Assembly: GCA_018434355.1 (NCBI GenBank)
Contig: JAHDPL010000032.1
Span: forward strand, 1-64,000
Reading direction: 5' to 3'
Source of the DNA: Sporomusaceae bacterium
Lineage (GTDB): Bacteria > Bacillota > Negativicutes > UBA1444
Length of the DNA: 64,000 nt
Shown piece after piece: positions 1 through 23,739 of this stretch. A program made the position numbers and the translations under genes. Under the pieces are notes generated by a model that ran no database searches, had not been told where the DNA came from, and saw only the letters and a program-made list of their open reading frames with translations. The stretch's first letter is position 1. Every line of letters starts with the position of its first letter.

Positions 1-231
1 GGAGATTTCTTCGATAGCCAGGGCGTAGGCGACGAAGTCCATGCCGGCCCCGCCGTATTCTTCCGGATAAGGGATGCCCATCAGGCCGAGTTTGCCCATT
101 TCGTTGTAAATATCGCGCGGGAAGATTTCTTTTTCATCGCGTTCGGCTGCGCCGGGGGCGATCCGTTTCTGGGTGAATTCCTGCACTGTTTTGCGCAAGC
201 TTTCCTGGTCTTCGGTCAATACAAAATTCAT
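1..231 (-). CDS. acyl-CoA dehydrogenase, N-terminal fragment (cut by window edge)
   Basis: Only the first 77 codons lie in the window; the gene runs off the left edge. The translation starts MNFVLTEDQESLRKTVQEF and contains LGLMGIPYPEEYGGAGMDF, the helical N-terminal domain of short/medium-chain acyl-CoA dehydrogenases, closely resembling the complete paralogue at 10833-11981 (LMGLPYPTEYGGAGAD). These flavoenzymes oxidise an acyl-CoA to the 2-enoyl-CoA and pass electrons to an electron-transferring flavoprotein. It is the last visible gene after the CoA-transferase and dehydratase-like genes and is probably co-transcribed with them. The ATG start has only a weak ribosome binding site. Substrate is unknown. 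Confidence 0.9.
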   Translation of the reverse strand, partial: MNFVLTEDQESLRKTVQEFTQKRIAPGAAERDEKEIFPRDIYNEMGKLGLMGIPYPEEYGGAGMDFVAYALAIEEIS

Positions 232-299
232 TTTCCAATCAGCTCCCATTTTTGTGCTTTTTTTCACATGTCAGGGCGAACGGATTCTTTAATAATCCC

Positions 300-375: not shown

Positions 376-1839
376 TTACTTCTTCACAGGCGCTTCGGGC
401 TCTTTGACGGCGTCAACCGGAATGTCCATGATTTTCTTGGCTTGCTCGAAATATTCTTCCCACTTGGTCAGTGCTTTGACGACCAGTTTGGCGCCGTCCG
501 GCGAACCGCCGCCATGCATGCAGCCGGGGATGCCGCCGCCGACGGTCAGCCACTCGACCAGGCGGGCCAGTTTGGCGCGGCTTTCGCCGTCAGCACCGGC
601 AGTGAGAGCCTTTTTGATGAATGCGCCGTAATCGGTCTGCATATCCATCCAGGAAGGCATGCAACCGGTCTCGGCGATGCCGCCGCTGATGTCCTGCGCC
701 ATGACTTTCGTCTGATACGGCAGTTTGGCGACTTGGGTCTTGTTGACATGGGCCAGCAGTGCATCGGGAACGAACAGACCGGATTTCATCGTCTTGCCGA
801 GCATCATCGCGCCCAGACCGACACCGGCGGTAATTTCGTTGTTGATCGCCATTTCGTTCAGCGTGGCCTGGAACGGTTTCACCGACAGACCATTGGCGCG
901 GGCCATGCCCATCGCGGCGCCGATCATGATGTCGCCCTGGCCGGCTACGCAGTGGCCGATGGCGGCGCGGTAGATCGCGGCGAAATTGCCGATATTGCGA
1001 CCGCTGTATTTGAACTCGCCGCACATGAATACGCGCTCGTTCGGAATGAATACGTTGTCAAAATGGATGTACGCCTGGGTGATGTTGCCGGCGTGAGGCA
1101 TGTCGTAGCCTTCTTCGGCGGCGCGGGTGTCGCTGATGCCGCGGCACTCGACGATGGTGATGCCTTTTTCATCGCGCGGTACGGCGAACGCTACCGCAAA
1201 GTCCTTGTCGACTTCGCCATAGCCGGTGCCGGGCATCGCGATGATGTAATGGCAGGCTGCCACGCCGCAGATCTGGATCTTGTAGCCGCTGACGATGATG
1301 CCGTCGGGCTTGACTTCTTTGACATGCAGGGTAACGTCGGGATTGGCCTGTTGGGAAGCTTTCTTGGAGCGATCGCCTTTGGCGTCGGTCAGTGCGCCGG
1401 CCAGAGCCAGGGCATTGTCCTCACAGAAGCGCATGAAGTTTTTGACCCGCTCATGATATTGGGTGCCAAACTCTTTGTCGCATTCAAACGATGCATCCCA
1501 CAGGGTGTTCAGCGCGGTCCAGCCGGCGCAGGTTGCGCCTTGGCAGGTGCCGGTCTGGTGATACTGATCGCGTTTCATCTTGGCATTGCCGACCTGGGCC
1601 GCAGCATCGCCCATGAAGGTGTTCCAGCGGTGTGCGATTTCGCCGGTCAGGCTGGATTTCGCAGTATAAATCGGTGCTCTTTCCGGATCAAAGCTTGCAT
1701 CATAGGAGCGTGCGACAGACTTGATATGCAGGGCTGTGTTCGGGTCGGTGGTGACGTCCTGGATCAATTTGCCGAACTTGTAGATATTGGGCCGCATTTT
1801 TTTGATACTCTCGATGTACTGTTTTCCGTTCATCAACAT
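376..1839 (-). CDS. 4-hydroxybutyryl-CoA dehydratase / HpaB-family flavoprotein, divergent
   Basis: 487 residues, the usual length for the 4-hydroxybutyryl-CoA dehydratase/4-hydroxyphenylacetate 3-hydroxylase family. Recognisable family segments are NGKQYIESI at the N-terminus, YHQTGTCQGATCAGW (residues 93-107), FIPNERVFMCGE (264-275) and GQGDIMIGAAMGMA (about 301-314). The well-studied dehydratase of Clostridium aminobutyricum binds FAD and a [4Fe-4S] cluster through Cys99, Cys103, His292 and Cys299. Here the first pair is spaced Cx4C (99 and 104), Cys297 is kept, and the histidine position seven residues before it is Tyr290, with His296 next to the cysteine. It may therefore act on another hydroxyacyl-CoA or hold a different cluster. 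It sits just after a CoA-transferase gene, so a CoA-ester substrate is likely. The ATG start has AGGGGGA upstream. Confidence 0.8.
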   Translation of the reverse strand: MLMNGKQYIESIKKMRPNIYKFGKLIQDVTTDPNTALHIKSVARSYDASFDPERAPIYTAKSSLTGEIAHRWNTFMGDAAAQVGNAKMKRDQYHQTGTCQGATCAGWTALNTLWDASFECDKEFGTQYHERVKNFMRFCEDNALALAGALTDAKGDRSKKASQQANPDVTLHVKEVKPDGIIVSGYKIQICGVAACHYIIAMPGTGYGEVDKDFAVAFAVPRDEKGITIVECRGISDTRAAEEGYDMPHAGNITQAYIHFDNVFIPNERVFMCGEFKYSGRNIGNFAAIYRAAIGHCVAGQGDIMIGAAMGMARANGLSVKPFQATLNEMAINNEITAGVGLGAMMLGKTMKSGLFVPDALLAHVNKTQVAKLPYQTKVMAQDISGGIAETGCMPSWMDMQTDYGAFIKKALTAGADGESRAKLARLVEWLTVGGGIPGCMHGGGSPDGAKLVVKALTKWEEYFEQAKKIMDIPVDAVKEPEAPVKK

Positions 1840-1898: not shown

Positions 1899-3485
1899 TT
1901 ACTTGCCGTTTTTGGCCAGGATTTCGGCCTTGATGCCCATCGGTTCATCGCGGAAGATGCGGGCATCCATCAATTTCAGGTCTTTGGCGACATGCGGCTT
2001 GAATTCCATCTGGGCCAGAATGTCCTTCTCGAGGTCCATTCCCGGCGCGATCTCAGTCAGAGTCAAGCCTTCCGGCCGCATTTCGAACACGGCGCGCTCG
2101 GTGACATAGAGAACCTTTTGGCCTTTTTCCCGTGCATATTCACCGGAGAATGTGACATGGCCGACTTTTGGCACCAGTTTTTTCGCTTTGCCTTCGCTGA
2201 CGATTTTCAGTTTGCCGTCTTCAACCGCGACTTCCAGTCCCGAAGCGGTCAATGTGCCGCAGAAAACGACGCGTTTGGAATTTTGCGTGATGTTGACAAA
2301 GCCGCCTGGTCCGGCAATCCGCGGACCAAATTTCGACACGTTGACGTTGCCGATTTCATCGAGTTCCGCCATGCCCAGGCAGGCCAGGTCCAGGCCGCCG
2401 CCGTCATAGAAGTCGAACTGGCTGGGGTGATCGATGATCGCCAGCGGGTTGATCGCGCAACCGAACCGCAGGCCGCCGCAGGGAACACCGCCGATCAGGC
2501 CGGGCTCGACTGTCGCGGTCAGTTGGTCGATGATGCCTTCTTCCGCCGCCACTGCCGACACGCCTTCCGGCATGCCGATCCCCAGGTTGATGACCGCTTC
2601 GGGAATCAATTCCATCGCCGCCCGACGGCAGATGATCTTGCGATCGTCGAGTGCGATCGGTTTGATATCGGAAAGCGGCATCCGTACGTCGCCGGTCAAT
2701 GAGCCGTCGTAGCCGCCCGGCGCCATGCCCATCGTCTGGGGATGGTTTTCCGGTTTGGCCACCACGATGGCATCTACCAATGTGCCAGGCACAACGACGT
2801 CGCGCGGATCGATCGTGCCGGTCTGGGTGATCCGTTCGACCTGTACGATGACCTTGCCGCCCGAGTTCTTCGCGGCCAGCGCCTGCACATAAAACTCCAG
2901 ACGAATCGGTTCCTTTTCGATGCTGACATTGCCAAACTGGTCGGCGGTTGTGCCGCGAATGATCGCCACATCGACCGGGAACGCCTTGTACCAGAGATAT
3001 TCTTTGCCTTCCAGCTCGATCAGTTTTACGACTTCGCCGGTCGAGCGCTTGTTCAGTCTGCCGCCGGTTTCCCGCGGGTCGGCGAAGGTTTTCAGGCCGA
3101 CATGGGTGATAACGCCGGGTTTTTTGCCGCCGATGGCACGGTACAGATGCATCATGACGCCCTGGGGAATCGCGTAGGCTTCGCATTGCTCCGCGTTGAT
3201 CATTTTGATCATATCCGGCTGCAAGTTGAAGTGACCGGCGATGATCTTGCTGATCAGACTTTCCTTGCACCAACGGTTCAGGCCCCAGTTCGATTTGCCG
3301 TCATTCTGGGAAGCGCCGTAAGTCAACGTCAGGTTGTTAGGAGCGCCGGTATTGAGAAAACTTTCTTCGACAGCTTTGGAAATTTCTTCGGGATGACCCA
3401 TGCCGATAAAACCGCTAACGGCAACCGTCGCCCCCGGTTTGATGAGTTTTACCGCTTCTTCCGCAGTCATGACCTTGTTTTTCAA
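1899..3485 (-). CDS. acyl-CoA:acetate/propionate CoA-transferase (one-chain, YdiF/Pct type)
   Basis: 528 residues with both CoA-transferase halves fused: an N-terminal domain opening TAEEAVKLIKPGATVAVSGF and a second half with INLGIGMPEGVSAVAAEEG (from about residue 297), where family I transferases of this type carry their catalytic glutamate. Length and order match propionate CoA-transferase and YdiF. It moves CoA between acetyl- or propionyl-CoA and a free acid, probably activating the acid used by the neighbouring dehydratase-like enzyme. The start is TTG, nine bases after a clear AGGAGG. It is the first gene after the sigma-54 promoter at 3588-3604. Acyl specificity cannot be read from sequence. 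Confidence 0.9.
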   Translation of the reverse strand: MKNKVMTAEEAVKLIKPGATVAVSGFIGMGHPEEISKAVEESFLNTGAPNNLTLTYGASQNDGKSNWGLNRWCKESLISKIIAGHFNLQPDMIKMINAEQCEAYAIPQGVMMHLYRAIGGKKPGVITHVGLKTFADPRETGGRLNKRSTGEVVKLIELEGKEYLWYKAFPVDVAIIRGTTADQFGNVSIEKEPIRLEFYVQALAAKNSGGKVIVQVERITQTGTIDPRDVVVPGTLVDAIVVAKPENHPQTMGMAPGGYDGSLTGDVRMPLSDIKPIALDDRKIICRRAAMELIPEAVINLGIGMPEGVSAVAAEEGIIDQLTATVEPGLIGGVPCGGLRFGCAINPLAIIDHPSQFDFYDGGGLDLACLGMAELDEIGNVNVSKFGPRIAGPGGFVNITQNSKRVVFCGTLTASGLEVAVEDGKLKIVSEGKAKKLVPKVGHVTFSGEYAREKGQKVLYVTERAVFEMRPEGLTLTEIAPGMDLEKDILAQMEFKPHVAKDLKLMDARIFRDEPMGIKAEILAKNGK

Positions 3486-3787: not shown

Positions 3788-4354
3788 TCACTCTCGCCAT
3801 TCAATATCTTGATGTTTACGCGGCGGTGTCGGCGGGGTTTGATCCGGCCATCCAATCGGCGTGATGCCGATCAGTCCCCGCTCGGGGCAGCCCAGATATT
3901 CCAGCACGGCGTCTTCAACCCAGAGCGGACCGGTCATCCAGCACGCGCCCAGGCCTGCTTCATGCGCCAGCAGAAGAAAGTTTTGCATCGCTGCACTGGA
4001 GCCATATTCGCTGCCACGCTGGTACACGCGCTCTTCCGGCATCTTGGTCACAACGACCAGGACTGCCGGCGCTCCGCCAAAGTCTTTGAAATAGCCGCGC
4101 ACCATCGTCCGCATTTTTTCATTGAACAGTTTTTGCATCCGCAGGTCCAGTTTTTCGATGCAGCCTTCGGCAATATTCGCCAAATCGGCTTTGGCCGCGC
4201 CAGTTAGGACATAGAATTTCCATGGTTGCTCATTCATTGCCGAGGGCGCCCACATCGCCCCATGGATCAGTTGCTCGATCAGTTCGCGGGGAACCGGGTC
4301 CGGCTTGAACCGACGAATCGTGCGGCGTTCCTTGATTGCCTGCAATAGTTCCAA
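3788..4354 (-). CDS. nitroreductase-family FMN oxidoreductase
   Basis: 188 residues with the nitroreductase signature: IKERRTIRRFKPDPVP at the N-terminus (Arg residues that bind FMN phosphate), APSAMNEQPWKFYVL (about residues 36-50) and a C-terminal GLIGITPIGWPDQ. Such enzymes use NAD(P)H and FMN to reduce nitro, quinone or enoate-like compounds. The start is TTG, eight bases after AGGAGG. It is the last gene of a minus-strand run with an M24 peptidase and a CoA-transferase, and a strong terminator follows. The natural substrate is unknown. Confidence 0.88.
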   Translation of the reverse strand: MELLQAIKERRTIRRFKPDPVPRELIEQLIHGAMWAPSAMNEQPWKFYVLTGAAKADLANIAEGCIEKLDLRMQKLFNEKMRTMVRGYFKDFGGAPAVLVVVTKMPEERVYQRGSEYGSSAAMQNFLLLAHEAGLGACWMTGPLWVEDAVLEYLGCPERGLIGITPIGWPDQTPPTPPRKHQDIEWRE

Positions 4355-4381: not shown

Positions 4382-5566
4382 TTAATGCTCGTGAATATAG
4401 TATGGGGCGTCGTTGTCCTCCACCAGGGAAACCAGCCCCTCTTCCCCCACCACAAATGTATTTTCCAGACCGACCGCGCCATCGGGAAAGACAAACTTCG
4501 GTTCGACGGCAATCACCATGTTCGCCTGCAGCACTTGTTCGACCCTCGGGGCCAGTACCGGCAGTTCATCGATTTCGACGCCGACGCCATGCCCGATGAA
4601 GGGTACCCGCCGCGCCATGCCCATAAAATGCTCGCACAGTCCGTTGGTGCGAACCAGTTGACGGGCCGCCGTCCACAGCTCACTGCAGATTGCGCCGGCG
4701 CGGGCCTGCTGCTTCAAGAGCTCCTGAATCGCCACGGCGGTCTCGTAGGCATGTTCCATGTGGCTCGGCAAATTGCCGATACAATAGGTCCTTGTCATGT
4801 CGGCTTGATAGCCGGTGGACCAGCCGGAAAAATCGACGATCACCGGTTCGTTTTTGCCGATCAGCCGCTGGGTTGATGCGTGGGGAAATGCCGGAACCAA
4901 GCCGCGCCCGCCGAGCGGGCCGCTGCTGTAACTGGGAATCGCCGCGTCCGGTCCGGACAAAACCAGCGCATAGGTGAGTTCCTGATTGAAGCCTCGCGCA
5001 CGCAAATAGCCGGGATGACCCAGCTGCCGGGCAAACCGTTCGATCTGCCCGGCCAGTTCCAGTTCACTCATCTGCTGATACAATACCTGAGGCACAAAGT
5101 CAAAGATCTGTTGGCCCATCTGGCAGGCACGACCGATTTGCTCGATCTCCCAGGCCGACTTGACCATCCGCAGTCTGCGGATAGCGCCGGAAATATCGAC
5201 GATACGAGCTGCCGGAAACAGTCCGGCCAGTCGGGAGTGCGCGGCAGCCGGCAACACGTCGGACTCCAGCCCCAGCACTGTCGGCAGTGCATAACCCTGC
5301 TCCTGCAGCAACGTCGGCAAGTTTTCCTGTCGGTTCAGATTCTCGATCCGGGATAGCAGCGTTTCCTCCCTTATGCGTTCCGCGCCAGGCAACGTCACTA
5401 ATAACGGGGTTCCCGCAGCCGGCACATAAAGGATCGCTCGATTCACTGCGCCGCTATAATAGAACAGATCGGCATGTTGCACAACCAGCGCCGCATCAAT
5501 CCCTTCCTTGTCGAGGGCCTGTTGAAGCGCGGCCAACCGGGCGTTCAATTCGCTTTGGGGTACCAC
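4382..5566 (-). CDS. M24-family metallopeptidase (Xaa-Pro aminopeptidase/creatinase fold)
   Basis: 394 residues: an N-terminal creatinase-like domain (about 1-155) and a C-terminal pita-bread domain. The five metal ligands of M24 aminopeptidases are present: Asp in PVIVDFSGW, Asp in ADMTRTYC, His in FIGHGVGVE, Glu in IAVEPKFV and Glu in VGLENTFV. It should therefore be a metal-dependent peptidase rather than a metal-free creatinase. The start is GTG with AGGCAGGTG upstream. It follows the two CoA-transferase subunit genes by 45 bases; the link between a proline peptidase and acyl-CoA metabolism is unclear. Confidence 0.87.
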   Translation of the reverse strand: MVPQSELNARLAALQQALDKEGIDAALVVQHADLFYYSGAVNRAILYVPAAGTPLLVTLPGAERIREETLLSRIENLNRQENLPTLLQEQGYALPTVLGLESDVLPAAAHSRLAGLFPAARIVDISGAIRRLRMVKSAWEIEQIGRACQMGQQIFDFVPQVLYQQMSELELAGQIERFARQLGHPGYLRARGFNQELTYALVLSGPDAAIPSYSSGPLGGRGLVPAFPHASTQRLIGKNEPVIVDFSGWSTGYQADMTRTYCIGNLPSHMEHAYETAVAIQELLKQQARAGAICSELWTAARQLVRTNGLCEHFMGMARRVPFIGHGVGVEIDELPVLAPRVEQVLQANMVIAVEPKFVFPDGAVGLENTFVVGEEGLVSLVEDNDAPYYIHEH

Positions 5567-5611: not shown

Positions 5612-6607
5612 CTATTGCAGCAGCGCCGCCACCTTGTCCTGCGGCATAATCCATTGTCCGAACGGCTCCGCCAGCACCTTCGCCGGATTGTCCTGCAAGG
5701 CGGCGACTTTTTCCGCCCCGATCAGGTCCAGATATTGCTGGTGATTTTCCCAGGAATAGACGTACTTGTCCAGATAGTTTCGCAAGGCTTCGCCGCGCGA
5801 GTTCTTGATGAACATGCTGATATGTTCGAGGTCTTCCCCATACACGCCGGGCGAGTTGCAAGGCCAGGCGCCCATGTACCAGGGCACGACCGCATCGACG
5901 CCGACGCCGGGAATCGCGACCAGGTTGGGGAAGCGGCGGCACATCTCGGTATCGACGATCTGGTCGGCGATCAGCACGATTTTCTTGCCGGCTCTTGCCA
6001 GCCAATAATCGTAGTACATCGAGCCGAGAATGAGCCCATTGCCGTGCGTGTCGGCAAACGGCACATGCACGATGGAAAGGTCCGGCGAAATCGCCTGCAA
6101 CAAAGCCACCTTGCGGCCACTGCCAAAGGGGTCTTCGGTCACGACATTTTTCGGATACGCCATTTTGCCATCCCATAGCCCTTGCTTCTTCAAATCGCCC
6201 CAGATTCCGGAGCCGCAGGGAATGAACGGCAGGTTGAGCGCACCGGCCATCAGCCGCGAATTCAGCGTCAGGTTCGATTCGTCTTCCCATTTGATCTTGC
6301 GAGGAATCCCCTTTTCCAGTGCATCGCGGGTAATCACGCTCAGTCCTGCCCGCTCATGGCTGGAGAACGTCGAAATCACCGAGTCGATGATTCCTTCGGC
6401 TACCAACATGCTGCCACCGAAGCCGATTCCCGGTTCCACCCAGTACAGGTCGCGGACTTTGACGCCGCCTTTTTTGTTTTGGCGCAAAATCTCCTTGATG
6501 AATATATTGGCCTGGCGCGCCAGCGGGAATCCGCCGGCCGCAATCGACATCCGGTCCTTGACAAACGTTTGGACGGCAACGTCCAGTCGCATCAATTTGT
6601 TTTTCAT
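5612..6607 (-). CDS. CoA-transferase subunit A (glutaconate CoA-transferase type)
   Basis: 331 residues, the length of the alpha subunit of glutaconate-type class I CoA-transferases. Supporting stretches are MSIAAGGFPLARQANIF (about 20-36), the oxyanion/CoA-binding-like PGIGFGGSMLVAEG (about 59-72) and HVPFADTHGNGLILGS (about 187-202). It pairs with the beta subunit encoded immediately upstream (28-base gap). Together they would transfer CoA between an acyl-CoA and a carboxylic acid entering the beta-oxidation-type pathway encoded before them. Related proteins include the steroid-ring enzyme IpdA, so dicarboxylic substrates are possible. ATG start with AGGGAGG upstream. Confidence 0.85.
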   Translation of the reverse strand: MKNKLMRLDVAVQTFVKDRMSIAAGGFPLARQANIFIKEILRQNKKGGVKVRDLYWVEPGIGFGGSMLVAEGIIDSVISTFSSHERAGLSVITRDALEKGIPRKIKWEDESNLTLNSRLMAGALNLPFIPCGSGIWGDLKKQGLWDGKMAYPKNVVTEDPFGSGRKVALLQAISPDLSIVHVPFADTHGNGLILGSMYYDYWLARAGKKIVLIADQIVDTEMCRRFPNLVAIPGVGVDAVVPWYMGAWPCNSPGVYGEDLEHISMFIKNSRGEALRNYLDKYVYSWENHQQYLDLIGAEKVAALQDNPAKVLAEPFGQWIMPQDKVAALLQ

Positions 6608-6635: not shown

Positions 6636-7457
6636 TTAAGCAAACAGCTTTTTCCAGCCGGTAAAGTCGCCGGTGACATCCAGTTGTTCGCGCAATATCT
6701 TGATTTCTTCCGCCGTCGGAGGCTCCACGATCTTGAAGCCGGCGGCGATCCGGATTGGAAAACCGGTGCGCTCTTTGACCTCTTCCAGCGTGGTAAAGGG
6801 ATAAATCGCGGCAATTTCCAGCTCGCGGGTGACAGGGTTCGGCGTCAGCACGGCCAGGTCGGTGCAGATGGCCAGCGGTCCGCCGCCGGACAGCCCCCAT
6901 TTGTCCCAACGGGAAGTCCCGCCGTCGCAGAAGCCGGGGCTTGTCTGATAATCGAGTTTGTCAACGATCCGGTCTTCCCGGTGGTTCATGATGACAACAA
7001 AATTCTGCGAGCCCACCGCCAGGTCGTGACCGCCGCCGCTGCCCGATACGCGGGCCGCCGGACGGGTATAGTCATCGCCGTACAGGGTGGTGTTGAGATT
7101 GCCGTACCGATCGCACTGGGCAGCGCCGAGATAGGTCAGGTGCACGCGTCCGGTCTGGACCAGCCAGCCCAGCGTGCTGAGCACATCGGTCTGGCATTCG
7201 GCATTGACCTGGATGACGGTGTCGTCAATCCCCCAGGGGATGCGTCCAACCGCCACCGAACCTATCGAGCCGCCCTCGTAGATGATCGAGACATCCGGCG
7301 CAAAGGTTTTTTGCGCCAGCTGGGCGGGCAACAGGCTCAGCCCGACGCCGCAGAATACATTGGCGCCGTCTTTGCAGTACTTGTAAGCAACCGAACAGGC
7401 AAATTCCATCGGAGTATACAGTTTGAGCAGGTCTTTACGGTTTGTCGCCGAGTCCAT
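6636..7457 (-). CDS. CoA-transferase subunit B (glutaconate CoA-transferase type)
   Basis: 273 residues, matching beta subunits of glutaconate-type CoA-transferases. The segment VSIIYEGGSIGSVAVGRIPWG carries the glutamate that forms the glutamyl-CoA thioester in this family, and GSGGGHDLAVGSQNFVV and GVGLSLLPAQLAQKTFAPDV are typical glycine-rich CoA-binding regions. It is encoded directly before subunit A and 30 bases after an isochorismatase-like gene. ATG start with GAGGGGCGAG upstream. Confidence 0.87.
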   Translation of the reverse strand: MDSATNRKDLLKLYTPMEFACSVAYKYCKDGANVFCGVGLSLLPAQLAQKTFAPDVSIIYEGGSIGSVAVGRIPWGIDDTVIQVNAECQTDVLSTLGWLVQTGRVHLTYLGAAQCDRYGNLNTTLYGDDYTRPAARVSGSGGGHDLAVGSQNFVVIMNHREDRIVDKLDYQTSPGFCDGGTSRWDKWGLSGGGPLAICTDLAVLTPNPVTRELEIAAIYPFTTLEEVKERTGFPIRIAAGFKIVEPPTAEEIKILREQLDVTGDFTGWKKLFA

Positions 7458-7487: not shown

Positions 7488-8042
7488 TTATTTGAGCAGT
7501 GGCAAAATCAGTTTGAATTCGGCGGAATCGGCCCGTTCCACCCATTCGTAGATCGTCAGTTCCGTCGCGGTGATCACGCCGCCGGCCTGCCGGATCCGGT
7601 CCAGGCCAATCCCCCGGTTTGCCGTTGTTCTCGAACCGATCGCATCGGCGACCACATGCACGTCATAGCCGCGGCGCAAAGCCTCCAGCGCCGTCTGACA
7701 GACGCAGATGTGCGTTTCGATCCCGATCAGCACCAATGTTTTGGCGTCAAGTTTGGCCAGCGCCTCGGCAAATCCCGGCGCGCCAAAGCAATTGAAGGTG
7801 GTCTTTTCCAGATAGGAGAACTCCGGCAACAGGCTGGTAATCGCCGAATGCGTCGGTCCCAACCCCTTTGTATACTGTTGGGTGAACAGCATCGGCACCG
7901 CCAGCGCCTTGGCCGCTGTCACCATTTTCACCGAGCGATCCAATACCGACGTAAAATCATGGATCGCCGGCAGCAATTTCTCCTGGATATCCACGACCAC
8001 CAACACGCAGCCTTCTTTCTTCAATGGCCCAAAGTTCGGCAA
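7488..8042 (-). CDS. isochorismatase-family cysteine hydrolase
   Basis: 184 residues. The catalytic triad of the family is visible: Asp18 in VVVDIQEKLL, Lys80 in FSYLEKTTFNCF and Cys113 in IGIETHICV, the last in the usual cis-peptide context. Family members hydrolyse amides or vinyl ethers (nicotinamide, N-carbamoylsarcosine, isochorismate), and this one resembles the short YcaC/nicotinamidase-like type of unknown substrate. The start is TTG after GGGGGAG. It is separated from the preceding crotonase gene by a strong hairpin (8066-8095), so it is expressed by read-through or from an unseen promoter. Confidence 0.88.
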   Translation of the reverse strand: MPNFGPLKKEGCVLVVVDIQEKLLPAIHDFTSVLDRSVKMVTAAKALAVPMLFTQQYTKGLGPTHSAITSLLPEFSYLEKTTFNCFGAPGFAEALAKLDAKTLVLIGIETHICVCQTALEALRRGYDVHVVADAIGSRTTANRGIGLDRIRQAGGVITATELTIYEWVERADSAEFKLILPLLK

Positions 8043-8116: not shown

Positions 8117-8899
8117 TTATTTCCCGGGAAATGCCGGCTTGCGCTTCTCAACGAAAGCGGTCATTCCTTCCTTCTTGTCTTCGGTCGCGCAGGTAACGCC
8201 AAACAGGGAAGCTTCCAGTACCGAACCGGTTTCCATGTCGGTGTTCATGCCTGTGTTGATCGCTACTTTAGCCATTTGCACCGCAAACTGGCCGCGCTGC
8301 ATAATCCGTCCGGCCATCGCCTTGGCGGTCGGCAGCAATTCTTCCGGTGTGGTGACTTTGTTGACCAGACCGATGCGCAGGGCTTCCTGGGCGTCGATCA
8401 TATCGCCGGTATAGGTCAATTCCTTGGCGACGCCTTTGCCGACTAGACGGGGCAAACGCTGGGTGCCGCAGAAACCGGGGATGATCCCCAGTGTGACTTC
8501 CGGTTGGCCAAACTTGGCTTTGTCGGAAGCGATGCGGATATCGCAGGACATCGCCAGTTCGCAGCCGCCGCCGAGCGCAAATCCGTTGATTGCGGCAATG
8601 ACGGGTTGCGGCAGGTTCTCGATCATGTTGAACACGGTTTGACCGAGACGGCCCCAGGCCTGTCCTTCGGCTGCCGTCATCGGCAGCATTTCCTTGATGT
8701 CTGCGCCGGCCACGAACGACTTTTCGGCGCCGGTCAGAATGACGACCTTGATCGCGGGATCTTCTTTGATGGCGGTCAGCAGCTCGCACAGCTCATCCAT
8801 GGTTTCCTTGTTCAGGGCGTTGAGCGCCGCCGGCCGGTTCATCGTCAGGATGCCCAGACCGTCCTGGTTTTCAAACAGCAGGTTTTTGAATTGTTTCAT
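8117..8899 (-). CDS. crt: enoyl-CoA hydratase (crotonase)
   Basis: 260 residues, the standard crotonase length. The two catalytic glutamates are present: Glu114 in GGGCELAMSCD and Glu134 in GQPEVTLGIIPG, and the oxyanion-hole segment SFVAGADIKEM (61-71) is intact. It hydrates crotonyl-CoA or a related 2-enoyl-CoA to the 3-hydroxyacyl-CoA (or the reverse in butyrate formation). The adjoining hbd and acyl-CoA dehydrogenase genes give the core of a short-chain acyl-CoA pathway. No thiolase or Etf gene is seen nearby. Confidence 0.93.
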   Translation of the reverse strand: MKQFKNLLFENQDGLGILTMNRPAALNALNKETMDELCELLTAIKEDPAIKVVILTGAEKSFVAGADIKEMLPMTAAEGQAWGRLGQTVFNMIENLPQPVIAAINGFALGGGCELAMSCDIRIASDKAKFGQPEVTLGIIPGFCGTQRLPRLVGKGVAKELTYTGDMIDAQEALRIGLVNKVTTPEELLPTAKAMAGRIMQRGQFAVQMAKVAINTGMNTDMETGSVLEASLFGVTCATEDKKEGMTAFVEKRKPAFPGK

Positions 8900-8922: not shown

Positions 8923-9780
8923 CTATTTCGAGTAATCGTAGAAGCCGCGACCGGTTTTACGGCCAAGCCAGCCGGCTTCGACATACTTGCGAAGCAGCGG
9001 GCAGGGACGGTATTTGGGATCTCCGAAGCCCTCATAAAGAACTTCCATGACATACAGCATGGTGTCGAGACCGATCATGTCGGACAGCGCCAAGGGTCCC
9101 ATCGGGTGGCCGAAACCGCTCTTGGCGACGGCGTCGATCTCTTCGGCGGTGGCAATCCCTTCGAACAGGGTCTGCATCGCCTCGTTCATCATCGGGCACA
9201 TAATCCGGTTGCCGACGAAGCCGGGGAAGTCTTTGACCATGACCGGGCTTTTGCCGAGTTTCTTGGCCAGGTCATACACGGTCTGCGCCGTTTCGGGAGC
9301 GGTCGCCAGGCTGCTGACGACTTCGACCAGCGCCATCAGCGGGGCCGGATTGAAGAAGTGCATGCCGCAGACTTTGGTCGGCCGTTTGGTCATCGCGCCG
9401 ATTGCCGTAACCGGCAGCGAGGAGGTGTTGGAAGCCAGAATCGTATGCTCCGGACAAAGCGCGTCAATTTTCGAGAAGATGTCTTTTTTGACCTTCATGT
9501 TTTCGACGACCGCCTCGACCACCAGGTCGACTTTGCAGGCAGCGGCATCCAGCTCGACCACGCCGCAGAGGTTCTTGTACATAGCCTCTTTGGCTTCTGC
9601 CGTCAGTTTGCCTTTTTCCACCATTTTGCCGAGGTTTTTCTCAATGTTGGCCATGCCTTTGTCGACAAACTTTTGGTCGATGTCCTGCATGACGACTTCC
9701 AAGCCGCCCTGCAGCATGACCTGGGCAATGCCGTTGCCCATCTGACCTGCGCCGATTACCAGTACTCTTTTGATCTCCAT
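8923..9780 (-). CDS. hbd: 3-hydroxybutyryl-CoA dehydrogenase
   Basis: 285 residues from an ATG with GGAGGCGG upstream; the reading frame stays open 25 codons further but those codons do not look like protein of this family. NAD-binding [11 protein letters not shown] (10-20), then [10 protein letters not shown] and [17 protein letters not shown] carry the catalytic serine and histidine region, and [15 protein letters not shown] is the start of the C-terminal helical domain. It oxidises 3-hydroxyacyl-CoA to acetoacetyl-CoA or an analogue, or reduces it in butyrate synthesis. It is followed after 23 bases by crotonase. Confidence 0.95.
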
Positions 9781-9867
9781 TTGTCTACCGCCTCCATTAA
9801 TGTGATATTTGTCTCTACTAATAGATTTTGCGCCAATGTGGCTTTTTCCTGCCACCTCATCGCCCGC

Positions 9868-10821
9868 CTACGCTTTTCTTTCCATTTCGCGCAGGAACGT
9901 CTCCAAGGTTTCGACATTCTCGACATTAAGGCAGCGTACATCGATTCCCCTGTGTTGCGCCGTTGTTTTGTTGAATGTCGTCAGCAGATGCTTGGGTCCG
10001 ATCTCGATAAACGTATCGACGCCGTCGTCCAGCATGGTGTTGACGGAGTCCTCCCACATCACGGCCTTGTAGACATGCTCGTTGAGCAGTTGGCGGATGT
10101 CGTCGGTTTCGCTGAAATATTTTGCCGTTACGTTGCTGACGACCTTCTTGGTCGGCTTGCCCATTTTCACCGTACCGATCAGGTCATACAGTTGTTGTCC
10201 GGCGCCTTTCAGCAGACTGGTATGGAACGGTCCGCTGACCTTGAGAAAAGTCGTTTGTTCCGCACCGCGTTCCATCGCCAGGGCGGCCGCTTTTTCCACA
10301 GCGGCCGCGTAACCGGCGACGATGATCTGGCGAGGGCAGTTGAAGTTGGAGCATTCAATCAGCCCGAGGTCTTTCGAATCTTCAACAATCTGCTGAACCG
10401 TTTCCCGGTCCAGGCCGGTAATCCAGCACATTTTTCCCAATCCCTGGGGAACCGCGTTTTGCATGAATATGCCGCGTTGTTTCACCAGTTTTACGGTATC
10501 TTCGAACTGGAAAACACCTGCATAGACCAACGCCGCGTATTCACCCAGACTGAACCCGGCCGTCACGTTGGCGGAAAATCCATACTTCTCGACGACTTTC
10601 AGAATTGCCAGTGCGGTGGTATGGATGGTCGGTTGGGAATTTTCCGTTTTGACCAGTTCGGATTCGGGTCCTTCTTTGCAGAGACGGCGGATATCGATGC
10701 CCATGACTTCGTTGGCGCGATCAAACACCGCCGACGCCTCGGGATAACGATCGGCCAGCTCCATTCCCATGCCGACATAGTGGGTTCCCTGTCCAGGAAA
10801 TACAAACGCGATTTTGCTCAT
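9868..10821 (-). CDS. FabD-like malonyl/acyl-CoA acyltransferase
   Basis: 317 residues of the malonyl-CoA:ACP transacylase fold: VFPGQGTHYVGMG (7-19), the nucleophile Ser91 in GFSLGEYAAL, Arg116 in LVKQRGIFMQ (the arginine that binds a malonyl carboxylate in FabD) and the catalytic His200 in SGPFHTSLL. In FabD the residue before the serine is normally His (GHSLGE); here it is Phe. It lies between hbd and an acyl-CoA dehydrogenase in a CoA-ester catabolic operon, with no ACP or ketosynthase gene nearby, so it may be recruited to another acyl transfer or hydrolysis. A housekeeping FabD is expected elsewhere in the genome. Confidence 0.85.
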   Translation of the reverse strand: MSKIAFVFPGQGTHYVGMGMELADRYPEASAVFDRANEVMGIDIRRLCKEGPESELVKTENSQPTIHTTALAILKVVEKYGFSANVTAGFSLGEYAALVYAGVFQFEDTVKLVKQRGIFMQNAVPQGLGKMCWITGLDRETVQQIVEDSKDLGLIECSNFNCPRQIIVAGYAAAVEKAAALAMERGAEQTTFLKVSGPFHTSLLKGAGQQLYDLIGTVKMGKPTKKVVSNVTAKYFSETDDIRQLLNEHVYKAVMWEDSVNTMLDDGVDTFIEIGPKHLLTTFNKTTAQHRGIDVRCLNVENVETLETFLREMERKA

Positions 10822-10832
10822 ACGATCACCCG

Positions 10833-11981
10833 TTACCGCAGAATCGAACCGGAAATGACCAGTTTCTGCACTTCATTGGTTCCTTCGTAGATCTGGGTGA
10901 TCTTGGCGTCGCGCATCATCCTCTCTACCGGGTGGTCGCGCAGGAATCCATGACCGCCGAGGATCTGTACGGCTTCGGTCGTGACTTCCATCGCGGTGTC
11001 GGTGGCAAACATCTTGGCCATCGCCGCTTCCTTGGAATACGGCAGTTTGTTGTCCTTCAGATAGGCAGCGTGCAGGGTCAGCCACTTGGCCGCTTCGATC
11101 TTGGTCGCCATTTCGGCCAGTTTGAACGCGATGACCTGTTGGTTGCAGATCGGTTGGTTAAATTGAACACGCTCTTTGGAATATTTCAGCGCGTACTCGT
11201 ATGCGCCCATGGCGATGCCGACGCCTTGCGCTGCGATGCCGATCCGGCCGCCGTCCAGCGTGGTCATGGCAATCTTGAAGCCTTCGCCGACTTTGCCAAG
11301 CAGATTCTCTTTGGGAATTCGGCAGTTTTCAAAGAACAGGTTGCGCTGCACAGTGGCGCGAATGCCCATTTTTTCTTCCTGTTTGGTGAACGTGAAACCA
11401 GGTGTGTCTTTCTCGACGATAAATGCGCTGATGCCTTTGACGCCTTTGCTCTTGTCGGTCATCGCAAACACGACATAGACTTCGGCCAGTCCGGCGTTGG
11501 TGCAGAAGCATTTTTCACCGTTCAGGACATAAAAGTCGCCATCTTCGACGGCTGTTGTCAGTTGTGCGCCGGAGTCGCTGCCTGCGCCGGGCTCGGTCAG
11601 GCCGAACGCGCCGACCAGTTTGCCCTGGAACAAAGGTACCGAGTATTTTCTACGCTGCTCTTCGGTGCCATAAGCGAAAATCGGCCAGCCATTGAGCGAA
11701 ATGGCGACAGAGTAAGCGCAACCGGTCGAGGCGCAAGCTTTGTTGATCTCGATGCTGGCCAGCGCATAGGAAATCTGGTCGGCGCCGGCGCCGCCGTACT
11801 CCGTCGGATACGGCAGACCCATCAGGCCGAGCGGGGCGAATTTTTCCTTGAACATCTTGTAGATCGGCTCGAAGCTTTCGCCTTTGTCCCATTCCTTGGC
11901 ATTGGGTGCGACTTCTTTGGCCACAAGGTCCTTGGCAAGTTGCTGGATGCGCAATTGGTCTTCTGTCAGTTGGAAATTCAC
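10833..11981 (-). CDS. acyl-CoA dehydrogenase (butyryl-CoA dehydrogenase-like)
   Basis: 382 residues from a GTG placed after GAGGGGGAAACAAATC; a longer open frame begins 15 codons upstream but has no ribosome binding site. Family features: LMGLPYPTEYGGAGAD, the FAD/substrate segment AFGLTEPGAGSDSGA, CFCTNAGLAEVYVV, and the C-terminal YEGTNEVQKLVI containing the catalytic base glutamate of short-chain enzymes. It interconverts a saturated acyl-CoA and its 2-enoyl-CoA with electron transfer to an ETF. It precedes the FabD-like, hbd and crt genes with very short gaps, so these are one transcription unit. Confidence 0.93.
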   Translation of the reverse strand: MNFQLTEDQLRIQQLAKDLVAKEVAPNAKEWDKGESFEPIYKMFKEKFAPLGLMGLPYPTEYGGAGADQISYALASIEINKACASTGCAYSVAISLNGWPIFAYGTEEQRRKYSVPLFQGKLVGAFGLTEPGAGSDSGAQLTTAVEDGDFYVLNGEKCFCTNAGLAEVYVVFAMTDKSKGVKGISAFIVEKDTPGFTFTKQEEKMGIRATVQRNLFFENCRIPKENLLGKVGEGFKIAMTTLDGGRIGIAAQGVGIAMGAYEYALKYSKERVQFNQPICNQQVIAFKLAEMATKIEAAKWLTLHAAYLKDNKLPYSKEAAMAKMFATDTAMEVTTEAVQILGGHGFLRDHPVERMMRDAKITQIYEGTNEVQKLVISGSILR

Positions 11982-12029
11982 GATTTGTTTCCCCCTCTTC
12001 TCTTTTTCTCTCTTTTTACTTATCAAACC

Positions 12030-12124: not shown

Positions 12125-13468
12125 TTATTTTGCTTCGTCCGGATTTTCTTTGATGCTGTTGCCAATCAAAAGTACCAACAGAACGCCGATCCCGAGGCCC
12201 CAGGCCGCAGATTTGGCGGCGAGGAAAATCGCCATTGTGCCGGCGATGCCGCGTTCCTGATTGGTCCGGCACATGTTCATCGCGATATAGAAGCAGGCGT
12301 AGCCTTGCACCAGCAGGGTCAGCGACAGCGCCGCCGGCAATACCGGGCGCACCAGGCTGATGATCGGCAGGAACAGACTGGCGACGAACATCGCGATGAT
12401 GAAACTGCCGCAACCGCCATAGATGCTGTCCATGGCCGCCCGTCCGTGCTTATAACGCTCGGCGATCGCGATCGTGCCGCCGGCCCACAGCGGACCGCAC
12501 AGCGGACCGTAAGGAGCAAACAGGCCCATGATCAGGTTACGGAAACCGGAGATCAGGTTGGAACGGGTCGGATTGAACTCGATCACTTCGTCCTGACGGA
12601 CGACGTCGGCTTCCTTGGTCACGACTTCAGCCAGCACAAAGTCGCCGAAAGCGATGATATAGGCTGCGAATACCAACGGCAGTGCGTCGATCCAGTATTT
12701 CGCCGCCGGGAAACCAACGCCGAACACGGTATAATCCAGCATTTTTCCTGCCAACGAAAAATCAATCATTCCCATCTGGATTTTCGGGAAAGGAATTTCA
12801 CCGATCAGCGGACCGACGATGGCCGCAACAATCAGGCCAGGCAGCATGCCGTATTTGGACAGCAATTGCAAAAACCCGCTATTTTGCTTTTTCTGGGCGA
12901 AGTTCCAGGAAAACAGCACTAGCCAGCAGATAAAGGCGCCGACCATAATCGTGACTTCCTGTCCGGTCATGCGTCCTTTGGGCATGATAACGCCCCATAC
13001 CGCGGCAACACCGGCGCCGAGGATGATTCCGGCCCGCATCGACATCGGCACATAAGCGATCAATTTTTTGCCCAGCCCGGTAATTCCGAGGAACATGAAT
13101 AAAATCGCCATCGAAAGTTGCAGGGCAATAATTGCGTGAATCCGGTCGGGGCCGGCGGCATAACCTTTGCCCCAGGCCAATACCAGCGGAATCGCCGGCG
13201 TAATCCAGCCCGGGAAGACCGGATCGCCAAATGTCGGATGCAATAAATACAGAAGGCCATTCAGCGCCACCATGACCAAGGCTACCTCGAAGGGAACTCC
13301 CAGCAGTTCCTGGTGAATTGGAATCGAACCCAGGGCAACCGCCACCAGGATCGCGCCTTGGATGGCTTCCGGCCATTCCCACTTGTAATGGATGAACGGC
13401 AGGCGCAGCTTGAATATCCCCAGTGGAATATACGGTTGTTCGGTGCCATATTCTCTGTTGATCGCCAT
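12125..13468 (-). CDS. multi-pass membrane permease (NCS2/SulP-like fold, substrate unknown)
   Basis: 447 residues with about 12 hydrophobic segments (for example LVMVALNGLLYLL, AILFMFLGITGLG, AGIILGAGVAAVWGVIM, MAIFLAAKSAAWGLGIGVLLVLLIG). The pattern, including a re-entrant-like FGDFVLAEVVTKEADVVRQDE and PYGPLCGPLWAGG, recalls nucleobase/sulfate-type elevator permeases, but I cannot name a close family. It is the first gene after the sigma-54 promoter at 13599-13615 and heads the acyl-CoA operon, so a carboxylic acid consumed by that pathway is the best guess for its substrate. ATG start with AGGGGGG upstream. Confidence 0.65.
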   Translation of the reverse strand: MAINREYGTEQPYIPLGIFKLRLPFIHYKWEWPEAIQGAILVAVALGSIPIHQELLGVPFEVALVMVALNGLLYLLHPTFGDPVFPGWITPAIPLVLAWGKGYAAGPDRIHAIIALQLSMAILFMFLGITGLGKKLIAYVPMSMRAGIILGAGVAAVWGVIMPKGRMTGQEVTIMVGAFICWLVLFSWNFAQKKQNSGFLQLLSKYGMLPGLIVAAIVGPLIGEIPFPKIQMGMIDFSLAGKMLDYTVFGVGFPAAKYWIDALPLVFAAYIIAFGDFVLAEVVTKEADVVRQDEVIEFNPTRSNLISGFRNLIMGLFAPYGPLCGPLWAGGTIAIAERYKHGRAAMDSIYGGCGSFIIAMFVASLFLPIISLVRPVLPAALSLTLLVQGYACFYIAMNMCRTNQERGIAGTMAIFLAAKSAAWGLGIGVLLVLLIGNSIKENPDEAK

Positions 13469-13789: not shown

Positions 13790-15907
13790 CTACGCATCGT
13801 AGCGGGTAATCTGGTACTGTTTCATTTTTCGCACGATCGTCGACTGGTTCACTTCCAGCACACGGGCCACCTTGCGTGTGGAACCGTGCTCGCCGAAAGC
13901 CCGTTCCAGCAGTAGCGCTTCCAATTCTTCCACCGCCTGCTTGTAAGGCACGACCCGGTTCAGCACGACAGCTTCCGAGCCGTCGACCACCGTCTCGATT
14001 TTCCCCTGCATCGTTTCCGGCAGATGGCAGGGATCGATATACGGCTCGTTGACCAGCACGACCAGCCGCTCGACCAGGTTTTCCATCTCGCGCACATTGC
14101 CGGGCCAGTCATAATTGACCAACCGTTCGACCGCAGCTGTCGAAAACCGTTTTTGCATGCTGTACTTTTGATTGACCTTGCGCAGCATTTCATGCAACAA
14201 CGGCGGGATATCCTCACGACGTTGCCGCAGCGGCGGAATCTGAATGCCAAATACATTGAGCCGATAATATAGATCGTCGCGGAATACGCCGGCTTTGACC
14301 AGCGTCGGCAAATCCTTGTTGGTGGCGGCAATAACCCGGACATCGACCGAGATCGGCTTGACGCCGCCGACCCTGGTAAGCGTCTTTTCCTGCAACACCC
14401 GCAGCAACTTAACCTGCAAGCCGAGCGGCAACTCGCCGATTTCATCGAGGAACAGCGTCCCGCCTGAAGCCAGTTCGAACATGCCGGGCTTGCCGTCCTT
14501 TTTCGCGCCGGTGAATGCTCCGCCGGCATATCCGAACAACTCCGACTCCAGCAGATTTTCCGGAATCGCACCGCAGTTCAGCTTGATAAACGGCTGGTTT
14601 TTGCGCCGGCTGAGCGAATGGATCTTATTGGTGATCACTTCCTTGCCAACGCCGGATTCGCCCATGATCAGCAGCGTCGAATCCACGGTCGCAATCCGCG
14701 CCGCCATTTCAACCACCCGTTGCATTGCCGGGCTCTTGGCCACCAGGTCATCCATCTTTAACTGCTGCAGGCGAATCTGTTCCAGTTCGGATACATAGCG
14801 TTGATTCAGCTCTACCGTAGCTTCCAGCTGTCGCTGCAACTGCTCGAGGTCGGTCATGTCGCGCACATTGACGACAATTTGGAGCAATTCGCCATTGTCA
14901 TCGAACATCGGCGTGCCGGTGGCCATGACCTGGTTGCCTTTGCGCGGGCCTTCCAAAATATTGACCAGCAGAGTGACTGTTTTCCGTTGCTCCAGCGCCG
15001 CCACCGCCGCCGATTTGTCGTACCATTTGCTGTCAACCAGTTCGTGGGCCGTTTTGCCGAGGATCTCAGCCCGCGGAAAGCCGCAGATTTTTTCCCAGGC
15101 CGAATTCACGCGAGTTACCCGCCCTTTGTTGTCGGCAATGTAGAACCCGTCATAGGAGTTTTCAAAAATTGCATCCAGTTCCTTGACCACCGAATTTGAG
15201 GTCTGCAACTGCGAACAAACAAAATCGTACTCGGATAGATCGAGGAAAACACTCATCGCGCCGACGCACTCGCCTTCATAAACCAGCGGCGTCCGGTTGG
15301 ACAAAATGCTTACCCCGTTGATTTGAGTCCGCACACCTGTCATCGGCGTCATCTGGTTCAGCGCATCCAGCATCCCCATATTCGGGTCCAGTTCGCCAAT
15401 ATGCCGACCGATGACCTCCTGCCGCTTTCGACCGAGAATCCGCTCTGCCGCCGGATTGAAAATCACGATCTTGCCAGCATTGTCAATCGCCAGAATTCCA
15501 TTGTGCGACGCTTCGAGAATCTTGCGTTCCATCTCGGCGATCTGACGGAAATAGCGGCTGGTTTTCCGACCGATCAACTTAGCCCGCATGAAGCCGATCA
15601 GCTTGTCCGCCTCGTCGACAAAGGGCACTACATCATTGTAGATCGAAAGATCGATCCTGTCATGCCGCGTTGTCAGTCGCTGGGCCTTCAGTTGTGTCAG
15701 GTTGTCCGCGATGTCGCCTTTGGCCCGCAACTCTTCCGCCGCGAACAACAAGGTCCGCACGCAGATCATGCCTCGATATGCCCCGGTTTCATCCTGCACC
15801 GGCAACGAAAAATATGGAACCCGACCAAAAATGGCGATGGCTTCGTCCACCGAATGGCTACAGAGCAATACCGGTTCCCGGACCAGATCGTCTTCGCTAA
15901 GAAACAC
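13790..15907 (-). CDS. sigma-54-dependent transcriptional activator with CBS and PAS domains
   Basis: 705 residues from a GTG six bases after AGGAGG; the frame is open 14 codons further upstream. Domain order: a CBS-like pair (about 1-120), PAS domain 1 (about 135-240, ILEASHNGILAIDNAGKIV), PAS domain 2 (about 250-365, AIFENSYDGFYIADNKGRV), a short coiled linker, the AAA+ domain with Walker A GESGVGKEV, the sigma-54 contact loop GAFTGA and Walker B FLDEIGELP, and a C-terminal Fis-type helix-turn-helix (VARVLEVNQSTIVRKMKQY). The sensor domains suggest binding of a small ligand, perhaps a CoA ester, acid or nucleotide. Sigma-54 promoters at 13599-13615 and 3588-3604 are its likely targets. Confidence 0.93.
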   Translation of the reverse strand: MFLSEDDLVREPVLLCSHSVDEAIAIFGRVPYFSLPVQDETGAYRGMICVRTLLFAAEELRAKGDIADNLTQLKAQRLTTRHDRIDLSIYNDVVPFVDEADKLIGFMRAKLIGRKTSRYFRQIAEMERKILEASHNGILAIDNAGKIVIFNPAAERILGRKRQEVIGRHIGELDPNMGMLDALNQMTPMTGVRTQINGVSILSNRTPLVYEGECVGAMSVFLDLSEYDFVCSQLQTSNSVVKELDAIFENSYDGFYIADNKGRVTRVNSAWEKICGFPRAEILGKTAHELVDSKWYDKSAAVAALEQRKTVTLLVNILEGPRKGNQVMATGTPMFDDNGELLQIVVNVRDMTDLEQLQRQLEATVELNQRYVSELEQIRLQQLKMDDLVAKSPAMQRVVEMAARIATVDSTLLIMGESGVGKEVITNKIHSLSRRKNQPFIKLNCGAIPENLLESELFGYAGGAFTGAKKDGKPGMFELASGGTLFLDEIGELPLGLQVKLLRVLQEKTLTRVGGVKPISVDVRVIAATNKDLPTLVKAGVFRDDLYYRLNVFGIQIPPLRQRREDIPPLLHEMLRKVNQKYSMQKRFSTAAVERLVNYDWPGNVREMENLVERLVVLVNEPYIDPCHLPETMQGKIETVVDGSEAVVLNRVVPYKQAVEELEALLLERAFGEHGSTRKVARVLEVNQSTIVRKMKQYQITRYDA

Positions 15908-16055
15908 GCTGCACCTCCTGGCGAGCTTTCCTTGCTCATGTAAAATCAACTTTATTTCGCGACGAATTATTATTCTAAATTAATCGACTTTTCCGACAGT
16001 CCACCTTTATTTTTACATAAAACAAGCGCCCCGTCCACCCCTGTAATTAAAAAAA

Positions 16056-20767: not shown

Positions 20768-21457
20768 TTACAACAGTTGGATGCGTAGCCGCTCATGCGC
20801 ATAGACTTCCATCACCCAGGCGTCATAGTCATCATCCTTGATCGTAACAATCCCGTACATTTGCCGCATCGGCAGATAAATCTGGATGAAGTCGGTCGAC
20901 GCCACCGGGATGATATGCTGCAGCCCCTGTTTCTGGTTCATGATGACGATTTTTCCCGACCGGACAACTTGCAGATAGGTTTCAAACCAGATGTGTTCGG
21001 CCCGTTTTATGACATAAGTGGTTTCAGCGTCTGCACTCAGGTCGAAGCTGCGGCTTTCCGACAGGTAGAATGACCGGGTGGTCTTGAACGCCTTGTAAAC
21101 CAGCGGCATCCCGTAGCCGGCATGCTGTCGGAGAGCATTGATGTTGGCGAAAAAATAATAGCTGCCGCTCTTCAAGTTTTTGAACACGGCTTTGCCTGTT
21201 TCATCGGTTGTCGCCTTGCCGTTTTCCCTGCCGGTAAAATCGGCTATCATCGCATGCAGCGTAACGCCGCGAATTGGCGCGCCGTCCTCATCCTGCAACG
21301 TGACGGTCAATGTTGGCGGCGCGACTTTTGTCGGCGGGTCAGCCGGTTTGACGACATCCGGCGCTGCAAAAGCCGGCAGGCAAATCGCAAGCAGCAGAAT
21401 CAGCAGAAAAGTTGCCACCCTGAAGTGGTTCAGTCTGTTGCGGGTTGTTTTCATCAT
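20768..21457 (-). CDS. secreted protein with Ig-like (CnaB/transthyretin-like) domain, unknown function
   Basis: 229 residues from the second of two adjacent in-frame ATG codons, six bases after GGAGG (an earlier ATG overlaps the site). A signal peptide (FRVATFLLILLLAICLPAFA) is followed by a proline-rich linker and TLTVTLQDEDGAPIRGVTL...TDETGKAVFKNLKSGSY, the pattern of a carboxypeptidase-regulatory/CnaB-type beta sandwich (about residues 49-110). The remainder is beta-rich with no family I recognise. It is the last gene of the secretin cluster, 30 bases after the second secretin, and probably acts in the periplasm or outer membrane with it. Confidence 0.7.
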   Translation of the reverse strand: MMKTTRNRLNHFRVATFLLILLLAICLPAFAAPDVVKPADPPTKVAPPTLTVTLQDEDGAPIRGVTLHAMIADFTGRENGKATTDETGKAVFKNLKSGSYYFFANINALRQHAGYGMPLVYKAFKTTRSFYLSESRSFDLSADAETTYVIKRAEHIWFETYLQVVRSGKIVIMNQKQGLQHIIPVASTDFIQIYLPMRQMYGIVTIKDDDYDAWVMEVYAHERLRIQLL

Positions 21458-21493
21458 CTTCATCCTCCGCTGCGATCACACAATGGTGCGTAT

Positions 21494-23696: not shown

Positions 23697-23739
23697 CGGC
23701 ACTCCCACCAATCAAAAATGTTATCCAACGGCGCCGGGC

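Follow-up and report, generated by a model that had tools for sequence, protein, structure and literature searches.

4-Hydroxybutyryl-CoA dehydratase (4HBD) expels the C4 hydroxyl with a flavin radical and an iron that acts as a Lewis acid. Two PDB structures, 6vjr and 1u8v, are of this enzyme, which is also called AbfD or vinylacetyl-CoA isomerase. Its cluster ligands are Cys99 and Cys103 (Cys99-x3-Cys103), His292 and Cys299, and Thr190 lies near the flavin N5. Martins et al. (2004) and subsequent work on mutants reportedly found that Glu257, His292, Tyr296, Lys300, Glu455, Thr190 and Gln101 matter in catalysis. The flavin radical part of the mechanism is outlined in the available parts of two papers (PMC8364193, PMC13101534).

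Two other kinds of enzyme offer a comparison. BbuA, the gamma-butyrobetainyl-CoA:TMA lyase, performs an FAD-dependent C4 elimination from an acyl-CoA and has CoA-transferases in its gene cluster, but it belongs to another family of the acyl-CoA dehydrogenase superfamily, according to the accessible part of its description (PMC8364193). TudS and the L-cysteine desulfidase CyuA hold a [4Fe-4S] cluster on three cysteines, and the fourth iron takes the substrate sulfur; one CyuA has a fourth, nonconserved cysteine on the open iron in the resting state (PMC10611767, PMC12647591, in the parts available).

The protein described here is encoded in a window of 64,000 nucleotides, i.e. the whole stretch of DNA that was analysed, from a contig of a Sporomusaceae bacterium. 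A sequence-only reading of the window had proposed a 4HBD relative with an altered set of iron-sulfur ligands and, following from this, a new reaction on a CoA ester.

Fold and family of the protein

The gene at 376..1839 on the minus strand encodes a putative flavoenzyme of 487 aa with the 4HBD fold, assigned from its open reading frame, Pfam, phmmer, the alignment, the tree and Foldseek. Pfam finds the domains HpaB_N and HpaB and no others. The nearest PDB matches by phmmer are 6vjr (1.4e-78) and then 1u8v (1.1e-75), and the homology to 1u8v covers the whole length. A Foldseek search with an AlphaFold model returns the same two structures as best matches at 33-34% identity, i.e. 4HBD is top-ranked by both methods. 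The model, from a single AlphaFold job, is weak, with a mean pLDDT of 66 and values below 50 across most of residues 373-458; its C-terminal third is unreliable, and Foldseek is used here as confirmation of the fold and of nothing further.

The oxygenase component of HpaB-type 4-hydroxyphenylacetate 3-monooxygenase shares the Pfam domains and the fold, but its identity to the window protein is about 20% (Foldseek) and the NCBIfam scores are far below the cut-offs, 121.9 against 480.2 bits for TIGR02309 and 81.4 against 885.2 for a second equivalog. On these curated cut-offs a monooxygenase was rejected. The likeness to acyl-CoA dehydrogenases is in the fold alone (Foldseek), and the window protein has no Pfam match to that sequence family. 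Three other 4HBD-family genes are present in the source genome (G000:C18:147581-149032, C52:31500-32942 and C16:152497-153921), all with the canonical ligand residues.

Cluster-ligand and catalytic residues

We compared the residues of the window protein with 1u8v and with 49 rows of one clade, described below. Cys99 (codon 1543..1545, on the minus strand like all codons given here) aligns with C99, Cys297 (949..951) with C299 and Cys104 (1528..1530) with C103, with one inserted residue in the loop, i.e. C-x4-C for C-x3-C. The wider spacing had been read correctly from the sequence, and so had the exchange of the histidine ligand, as H292 aligns with Tyr290 (970..972). Tyrosine is found here in 48 of the 49 clade rows, with Glu in L137, and histidine in none. 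Cys297 is present in all 49 rows, Cys99 and Cys104 in 48 each, the exception being L171, which is truncated there. In the non-clade rows of the same alignment, from which L062 and L065 were left out, C/C/H292/C299 as well as T190 and K300 are found in 59 out of 59.

The other residues reported to be catalytic are also exchanged. Six of them (Glu257, Tyr296, Lys300, Glu455, Thr190, Gln101) are all present in 20 canonical rows, whereas none is kept in 21 clade rows. Glu257 is replaced by Gln (Gln255, 47/49), Tyr296 by Ile (Ile294, 48/49) and Lys300 by Val (Val298, 49/49), and Glu455 is lost. The equivalents of Arg90, Arg293 and His458 are retained in the alignment.

Three clade-specific cysteines had escaped the earlier reading. 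Cys393 (661..663), found in all 49 rows, lies in a clade-only insertion of two residues before MPS, and Cys440 (520..522; 47/49) aligns with S456, beside the lost Glu455. Cys191 (1267..1269) takes the position of T190 in 41/49 rows; the other eight have Ala191, and seven of these carry Cys293. A cysteine at either 191 or 293 is thus found in 48/49 rows (Fisher p 0.02, not corrected for kinship). As an invariant new ligand Cys191 was a candidate that held in 21 rows, and it was dropped when the eight alanines appeared.

The window protein does have a histidine beside Cys297, as had been noted, but it is no feature of the clade. His296 (952..954; G298 in 1u8v) occurs in 1 of the 49 clade rows, and among 52 rows the position holds Ala in 43, Gly in 8 and His in the window protein only. 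It was rejected as a general substitute ligand. The earlier concern that His296 might land on the cluster was not borne out, as this residue is not conserved.

Because the same residue changes recur across the clade, chance or sequencing error can be excluded, and the active site of 4HBD has undergone a coordinated, clade-wide rewiring; the altered ligands first seen in the window protein are real and not peculiar to it. Since both ligand and catalytic residues are replaced, the 376-1839 protein is, judged by these residues, a 4HBD relative and not a 4HBD. The exchange of metal-binding and catalytic residues as a set probably reflects a different reaction on small CoA-bound acids. As Cys99, Cys104 and Cys297 are invariant in the complete rows, retention of the cluster is likelier than its loss, and we find it reasonably likely that the cluster is kept with a changed fourth ligand. 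The place of His292 may be taken by Cys393, Cys440 or Tyr290, or there may be an open iron. With the three cysteine ligands of 4HBD conserved the site may be an open one, yet Cys393 or Cys440 could fill it.

Phylogeny and distribution of the clade

In a tree of 68 rows, from which the diagnostic residue columns had been removed, a single branch with an SH-aLRT of 100 sets the 49 proteins apart from the rest. The tree was obtained by a quick search with SH-aLRT support and no bootstrap, and L136, L137 and 6vjr have long branches. A clade HMM separates the proteins without overlap, with scores of at least 646 bits for members and at most 456 for all other members of the family. Close relatives are about 50-71% identical to the window protein.

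Clade members are present in 13 out of 299 further genomes sampled from the class of the source organism, 11 out of 397 from its phylum and 14 out of 344 from the phylum of L034. The order of L170 contributes one more genome. The class of Desulfovibrio has the gene in 1 of 297 genomes, namely the starting genome. Eight loci are in MAG contigs (Syntrophaceae, Negativicutes, Desulfovibrio, Aquificota, Zixibacteria, Clostridia and Syntrophomonadaceae), two of which duplicate genome-search matches and were counted once; L042 and L124 were left out as copies of the L035 and L040 contigs. None of the 60 pattern-matching stretches checked in viral contigs encodes a relative. None of the titles and abstract beginnings listed by a literature search describes the clade; most subscription journals were outside its scope, and the clade may have been published before. 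In their available parts, PMC13101534 (benzene) and PMC9888536 (Desulfitobacterium) mention related terms and no more.

Other members of the family also depart from the canonical pattern. In L090-L094, from the same class, Cys/Cys/His/Cys and Thr190 are kept, Gln is found at position 257, and Tyr296 and Glu455 are lost; judged by these residues the group is likely another non-dehydratase. In L158 and L164 the clade gene has a tandem partner whose product keeps His292 and carries an additional Cys. This fourth 4HBD-like type (motifs GTCNYRC and THRMNCGGAC; L158:7326-8768 and L164:10963-12405) directly adjoins the clade gene, i.e. the two loci are tandem pairs of divergent 4HBD-like enzymes.

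The window operon

The operon is entirely on the minus strand and runs from a sigma-54 activator to the 376-1839 gene and an acyl-CoA dehydrogenase gene that is truncated where the contig ends. The truncated gene (1..267) covers the N-terminal 89 aa, and its product is 68-74% identical over 77 aa to its positional counterparts in L043-L047. A YdiF/Pct-type CoA-transferase of 528 aa (1899..3485) lies 59 bp upstream of the 376-1839 gene. The order YdiF, clade gene, acyl-CoA dehydrogenase is also found in L043-L047.

Further upstream are a nitroreductase family protein (3788..4354, Pfam), an M24 peptidase or creatinase-fold protein (4382..5566, Pfam), subunits A (5612..6607) and B (6636..7457) resembling glutaconate CoA-transferase, and an isochorismatase-family hydrolase (7488..8042, Pfam). 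They are followed by a short-chain enoyl-CoA hydratase (crotonase, 8117..8899), a 3-hydroxybutyryl-CoA dehydrogenase (HBD, 8923..9855), a malonyl-CoA acyltransferase-like protein (9868..10821, Pfam) and an acyl-CoA dehydrogenase of the butyryl-CoA dehydrogenase type (10833..12026). A membrane transporter (12125..13468) has a weak MFS_MOT1 match below the cut-off, and the same transporter family is found in L037, L040, L127, L131 and L169. The PAS/sigma-54 activator is at 13790..15949 (Pfam).

Elsewhere in the window some other genes were noticed by eye. A row of probably exported proteins at 20768-28969 contains the paralogous pairs 21494-22573/22563-23711, 23740-24759/26431-27441 and 24796-26247/27452-28969. 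A UroD/MtaA-like methyltransferase adjoins a corrinoid-binding protein at 35983-37964. At 62438-63998 there is a gene for a glycyl-radical activating enzyme and, upstream, a glycyl radical enzyme gene of which the window edge leaves only the last part.

Gene neighbourhoods

We compared the neighbours of 49 clade genes with those of 22 canonical 4HBD controls. The counts come from codon-usage gene calling and tblastn and not from curated annotation, and they are lower bounds on presence, as several contigs end near the clade gene. A CoA-activating gene is found within 9 kb at 28/49 clade loci and 9/22 controls, and within 2.2 kb at 26/49 and 6/22. EtfAB is within 9 kb at 20/49 clade loci, compared with 1/22 controls (Fisher p 0.0017). 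PaaK-like ligases (11/49) and AFOR (7/49) do not occur at any of the 22 controls, while Cat-type CoA-transferases are found at 6/49 clade loci and 8/22 controls. Acyl-CoA dehydrogenases, at 20/49 clade loci (21/49 with looser cut-offs) and 5/22 controls, do not set the clade clearly apart. Neither do sigma-54 activators (12/49 and 10/22), nor crotonase, HBD and thiolase, each at 4/49 clade loci and at 6/22, 6/22 and 5/22 controls, respectively. L035 and L040 were considered as loci of an Etf client without an acyl-CoA dehydrogenase, and this was rejected, as both have such a gene further off.

Four types of activating enzyme interchange beside the clade gene (YdiF at 9, Cat-type at 6, PaaK-like at 11 and type III at 3 of the 49 loci), which points to an acyl-CoA as the substrate. 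Given the CoA-activating and EtfAB neighbourhoods, the clade probably acts on a CoA thioester formed from an acid taken up by the cell, and its product would go to an Etf-linked dehydrogenase. That it is a distinct acyl-CoA enzyme of CoA-ester metabolism seems to us quite probable. The proposal of a different reaction on a CoA ester thereby gains ground, with the rest of the 4HBD catalytic residues replaced and with CoA-activating and Etf/acyl-CoA dehydrogenase genes adjoining.

Single loci give hints about substrates, and the clade may hold more than one. The operon of L134/L135 contains a TRAP transporter, an ornithine-cyclodeaminase (OCD)-family gene, a three-subunit 2-oxoacid oxidoreductase, the clade gene, an acyl-CoA dehydrogenase and EtfBA, a set that suggests a complete pathway in which an amino acid is deaminated and ends as an enoyl-CoA. 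A glutamate symporter in L053 hints at a glutamate-like substrate and an MTTB-family gene in L041 at a quaternary amine. L034 has an amino-acid permease, and propionyl-CoA metabolism is hinted at in L039 and L160-L162. In the phylum of L034, AFOR-family and AIRS-like genes follow the clade gene in L158, L160, L161, L162 and L164; four of these five loci also have a molybdopterin oxidoreductase downstream of the clade gene, and in three a type III CoA-transferase and a carboxyltransferase precede it.

Sulfur-associated loci

The 18-row group of the window protein has an SH-aLRT of 100, and four of its loci, L051, L052, L165 and L170, do not belong to its main catabolic branch. In L051, L052 and L170 the clade gene adjoins ABC genes and one for a binding protein of the MetQ/NlpA type, and an NMT1/SsuA-like binding protein is beside it in L165. 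In L170 the MetQ match scores under the family cut-off (151.1 against 228.85 bits) and does not imply the identity of the ligand. An O-acetylhomoserine sulfhydrylase-like gene is present in L052, L165 and L170, and a CysK-like gene in L165 and L170; in L170 the former exceeds the curated cut-off of NF006096 and the latter that of TIGR01139. L198, found later, repeats the order MetQ-ABC-ABC-clade gene-PaaK and also has rhodanese and SsuA-type genes; L170 has a rhodanese gene as well. All five loci have a PaaK-like ligase along with ABC transporter genes near the clade gene, and their neighbours are of kinds that serve sulfur assimilation or uptake of the organosulfur type.

L048, with a MetQ-type gene 3.9 kb away, is the single locus with such a gene in the remaining 45 of the clade. 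Sulfur genes mark 5 of 50 clade loci, or 6 with L048. MetQ, sulfhydrylase, CysK and SsuA were found at none of the 22 controls. The Fisher value of 2.8e-6 for this subset is not a fair test, since the subset was chosen after looking and its members are related. The window operon has no sulfur gene, and the same holds for most other clade loci. A cysteine-desulfurase-family gene is present in L159 and L164, where it may serve only cluster assembly.

Proposed reaction and alternatives

From the mechanism of 4HBD and the open iron of TudS and CyuA we reason that a 4HBD scaffold deprived of the histidine could release sulfur as the leaving group of an acyl-CoA. The organism would take up a small organic acid and turn it into its CoA ester with a CoA-transferase or a ligase. 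From this acyl-CoA the enzyme would then eliminate the leaving group via a flavin semiquinone/ketyl step of the kind by which 4HBD removes the hydroxyl. The leaving group would be sulfur, as a thiol, thioether or sulfide, and would bind to the iron whose ligand in 4HBD is His292. This iron would be open, as in TudS and CyuA, or held at rest by Cys393 or Cys440. The enoyl-CoA would pass to the neighbouring acyl-CoA dehydrogenase-EtfAB and, where present, to crotonase, 3-hydroxyacyl-CoA dehydrogenase and thiolase. The likeness to TudS and CyuA would be in the working principle, three cysteines and a free iron, and we claim no sequence relation; to our knowledge, neither has a flavin or an acyl-CoA substrate.

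A flavin/[4Fe-4S] acyl-CoA lyase whose three-cysteine cluster binds a sulfur leaving group is our best guess and a tentative one, argued by analogy and from the five sulfur-associated loci. The fold, the clade, its exchanged residues and the gene neighbourhoods are observed, and FAD, the cluster, an acyl-CoA substrate, the elimination and sulfur are predicted from them. The crotonase and HBD genes of the window suit a C4 product, thiol beta-elimination would not need a radical enzyme, and other loci (L134, L135, L053, L041 and the five with the AFOR cluster) hint at other chemistry. Ranked next, and doubtful in its turn, is a reaction in which a gamma-substituted acyl-CoA loses an amine or hydroxyl and yields crotonyl-CoA. 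The enzyme would then be an analogue of BbuA that arose independently, or would deaminate 4-aminobutyryl-CoA, and the cluster would have no further part as a Lewis acid for the hydroxyl. Neighbourhoods like those of 4-hydroxybutyrate fermentation (Cat/AbfT-type CoA-transferase at 6/49 loci; crotonase, HBD and thiolase at 4 each) agree with this, and so do the permease of L034, the MTTB-family gene of L041 and the OCD-family and 2-oxoacid oxidoreductase genes of L134/L135, but each of these hints comes from one or two loci and the sulfur loci are left unexplained. That such an elimination exists is shown by BbuA, which is outside the HpaB/4HBD family with about 10% identity to 4HBD, as stated in the available part of that paper (PMC8364193).

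A redox-neutral isomerase that converts beta,gamma- to alpha,beta-enoyl-CoA, a side activity of 4HBD, would account for the replacement of all residues that the dehydration reportedly needs in a protein that retains the fold and the counterparts of Arg90, Arg293 and His458. The acyl-CoA dehydrogenase, crotonase and HBD neighbours would fit an unsaturated acid, and an all-cysteine cluster could be structural or tune the flavin. We regard this as unlikely: the three new conserved cysteines have no explanation in it, nor is there a reason for a flavin/cluster enzyme instead of the ordinary crotonase-fold isomerases. Loss of the cluster is more improbable again, as no complete row lacks any of the three cysteines that are ligands in 4HBD. 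The cysteines would in that case have a structural role, coordinate a different metal or serve as catalytic thiols next to the flavin, for which the position of Cys191 at Thr190 of 4HBD, with Ala in eight rows and Cys293 instead in seven, could speak. Least probable of all is an acyl-CoA oxidoreductase that passes electrons via the cluster to EtfAB. The excess of EtfAB near clade genes and the acyl-CoA dehydrogenase fold (Foldseek) agree with it, but an ordinary acyl-CoA dehydrogenase is within 9 kb at all 20 Etf loci except L035 and L040, and Glu455, the candidate for a catalytic glutamate, is lost.

If sulfur is the leaving group, a radical dehydratase would have become a desulfurase by taking the histidine off the substrate iron and adding cysteines, and would serve anaerobes in organosulfur scavenging as well as in fermentation; we put this forward as a speculative picture. 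A natural clade with a rebuilt 4HBD site is a ready comparison for the role of each residue, and its reaction is probably one that has yet to be assigned in the acid metabolism of anaerobes. Should the sulfur reading be true, this reaction would be a new oxygen-free way to break C-S bonds.
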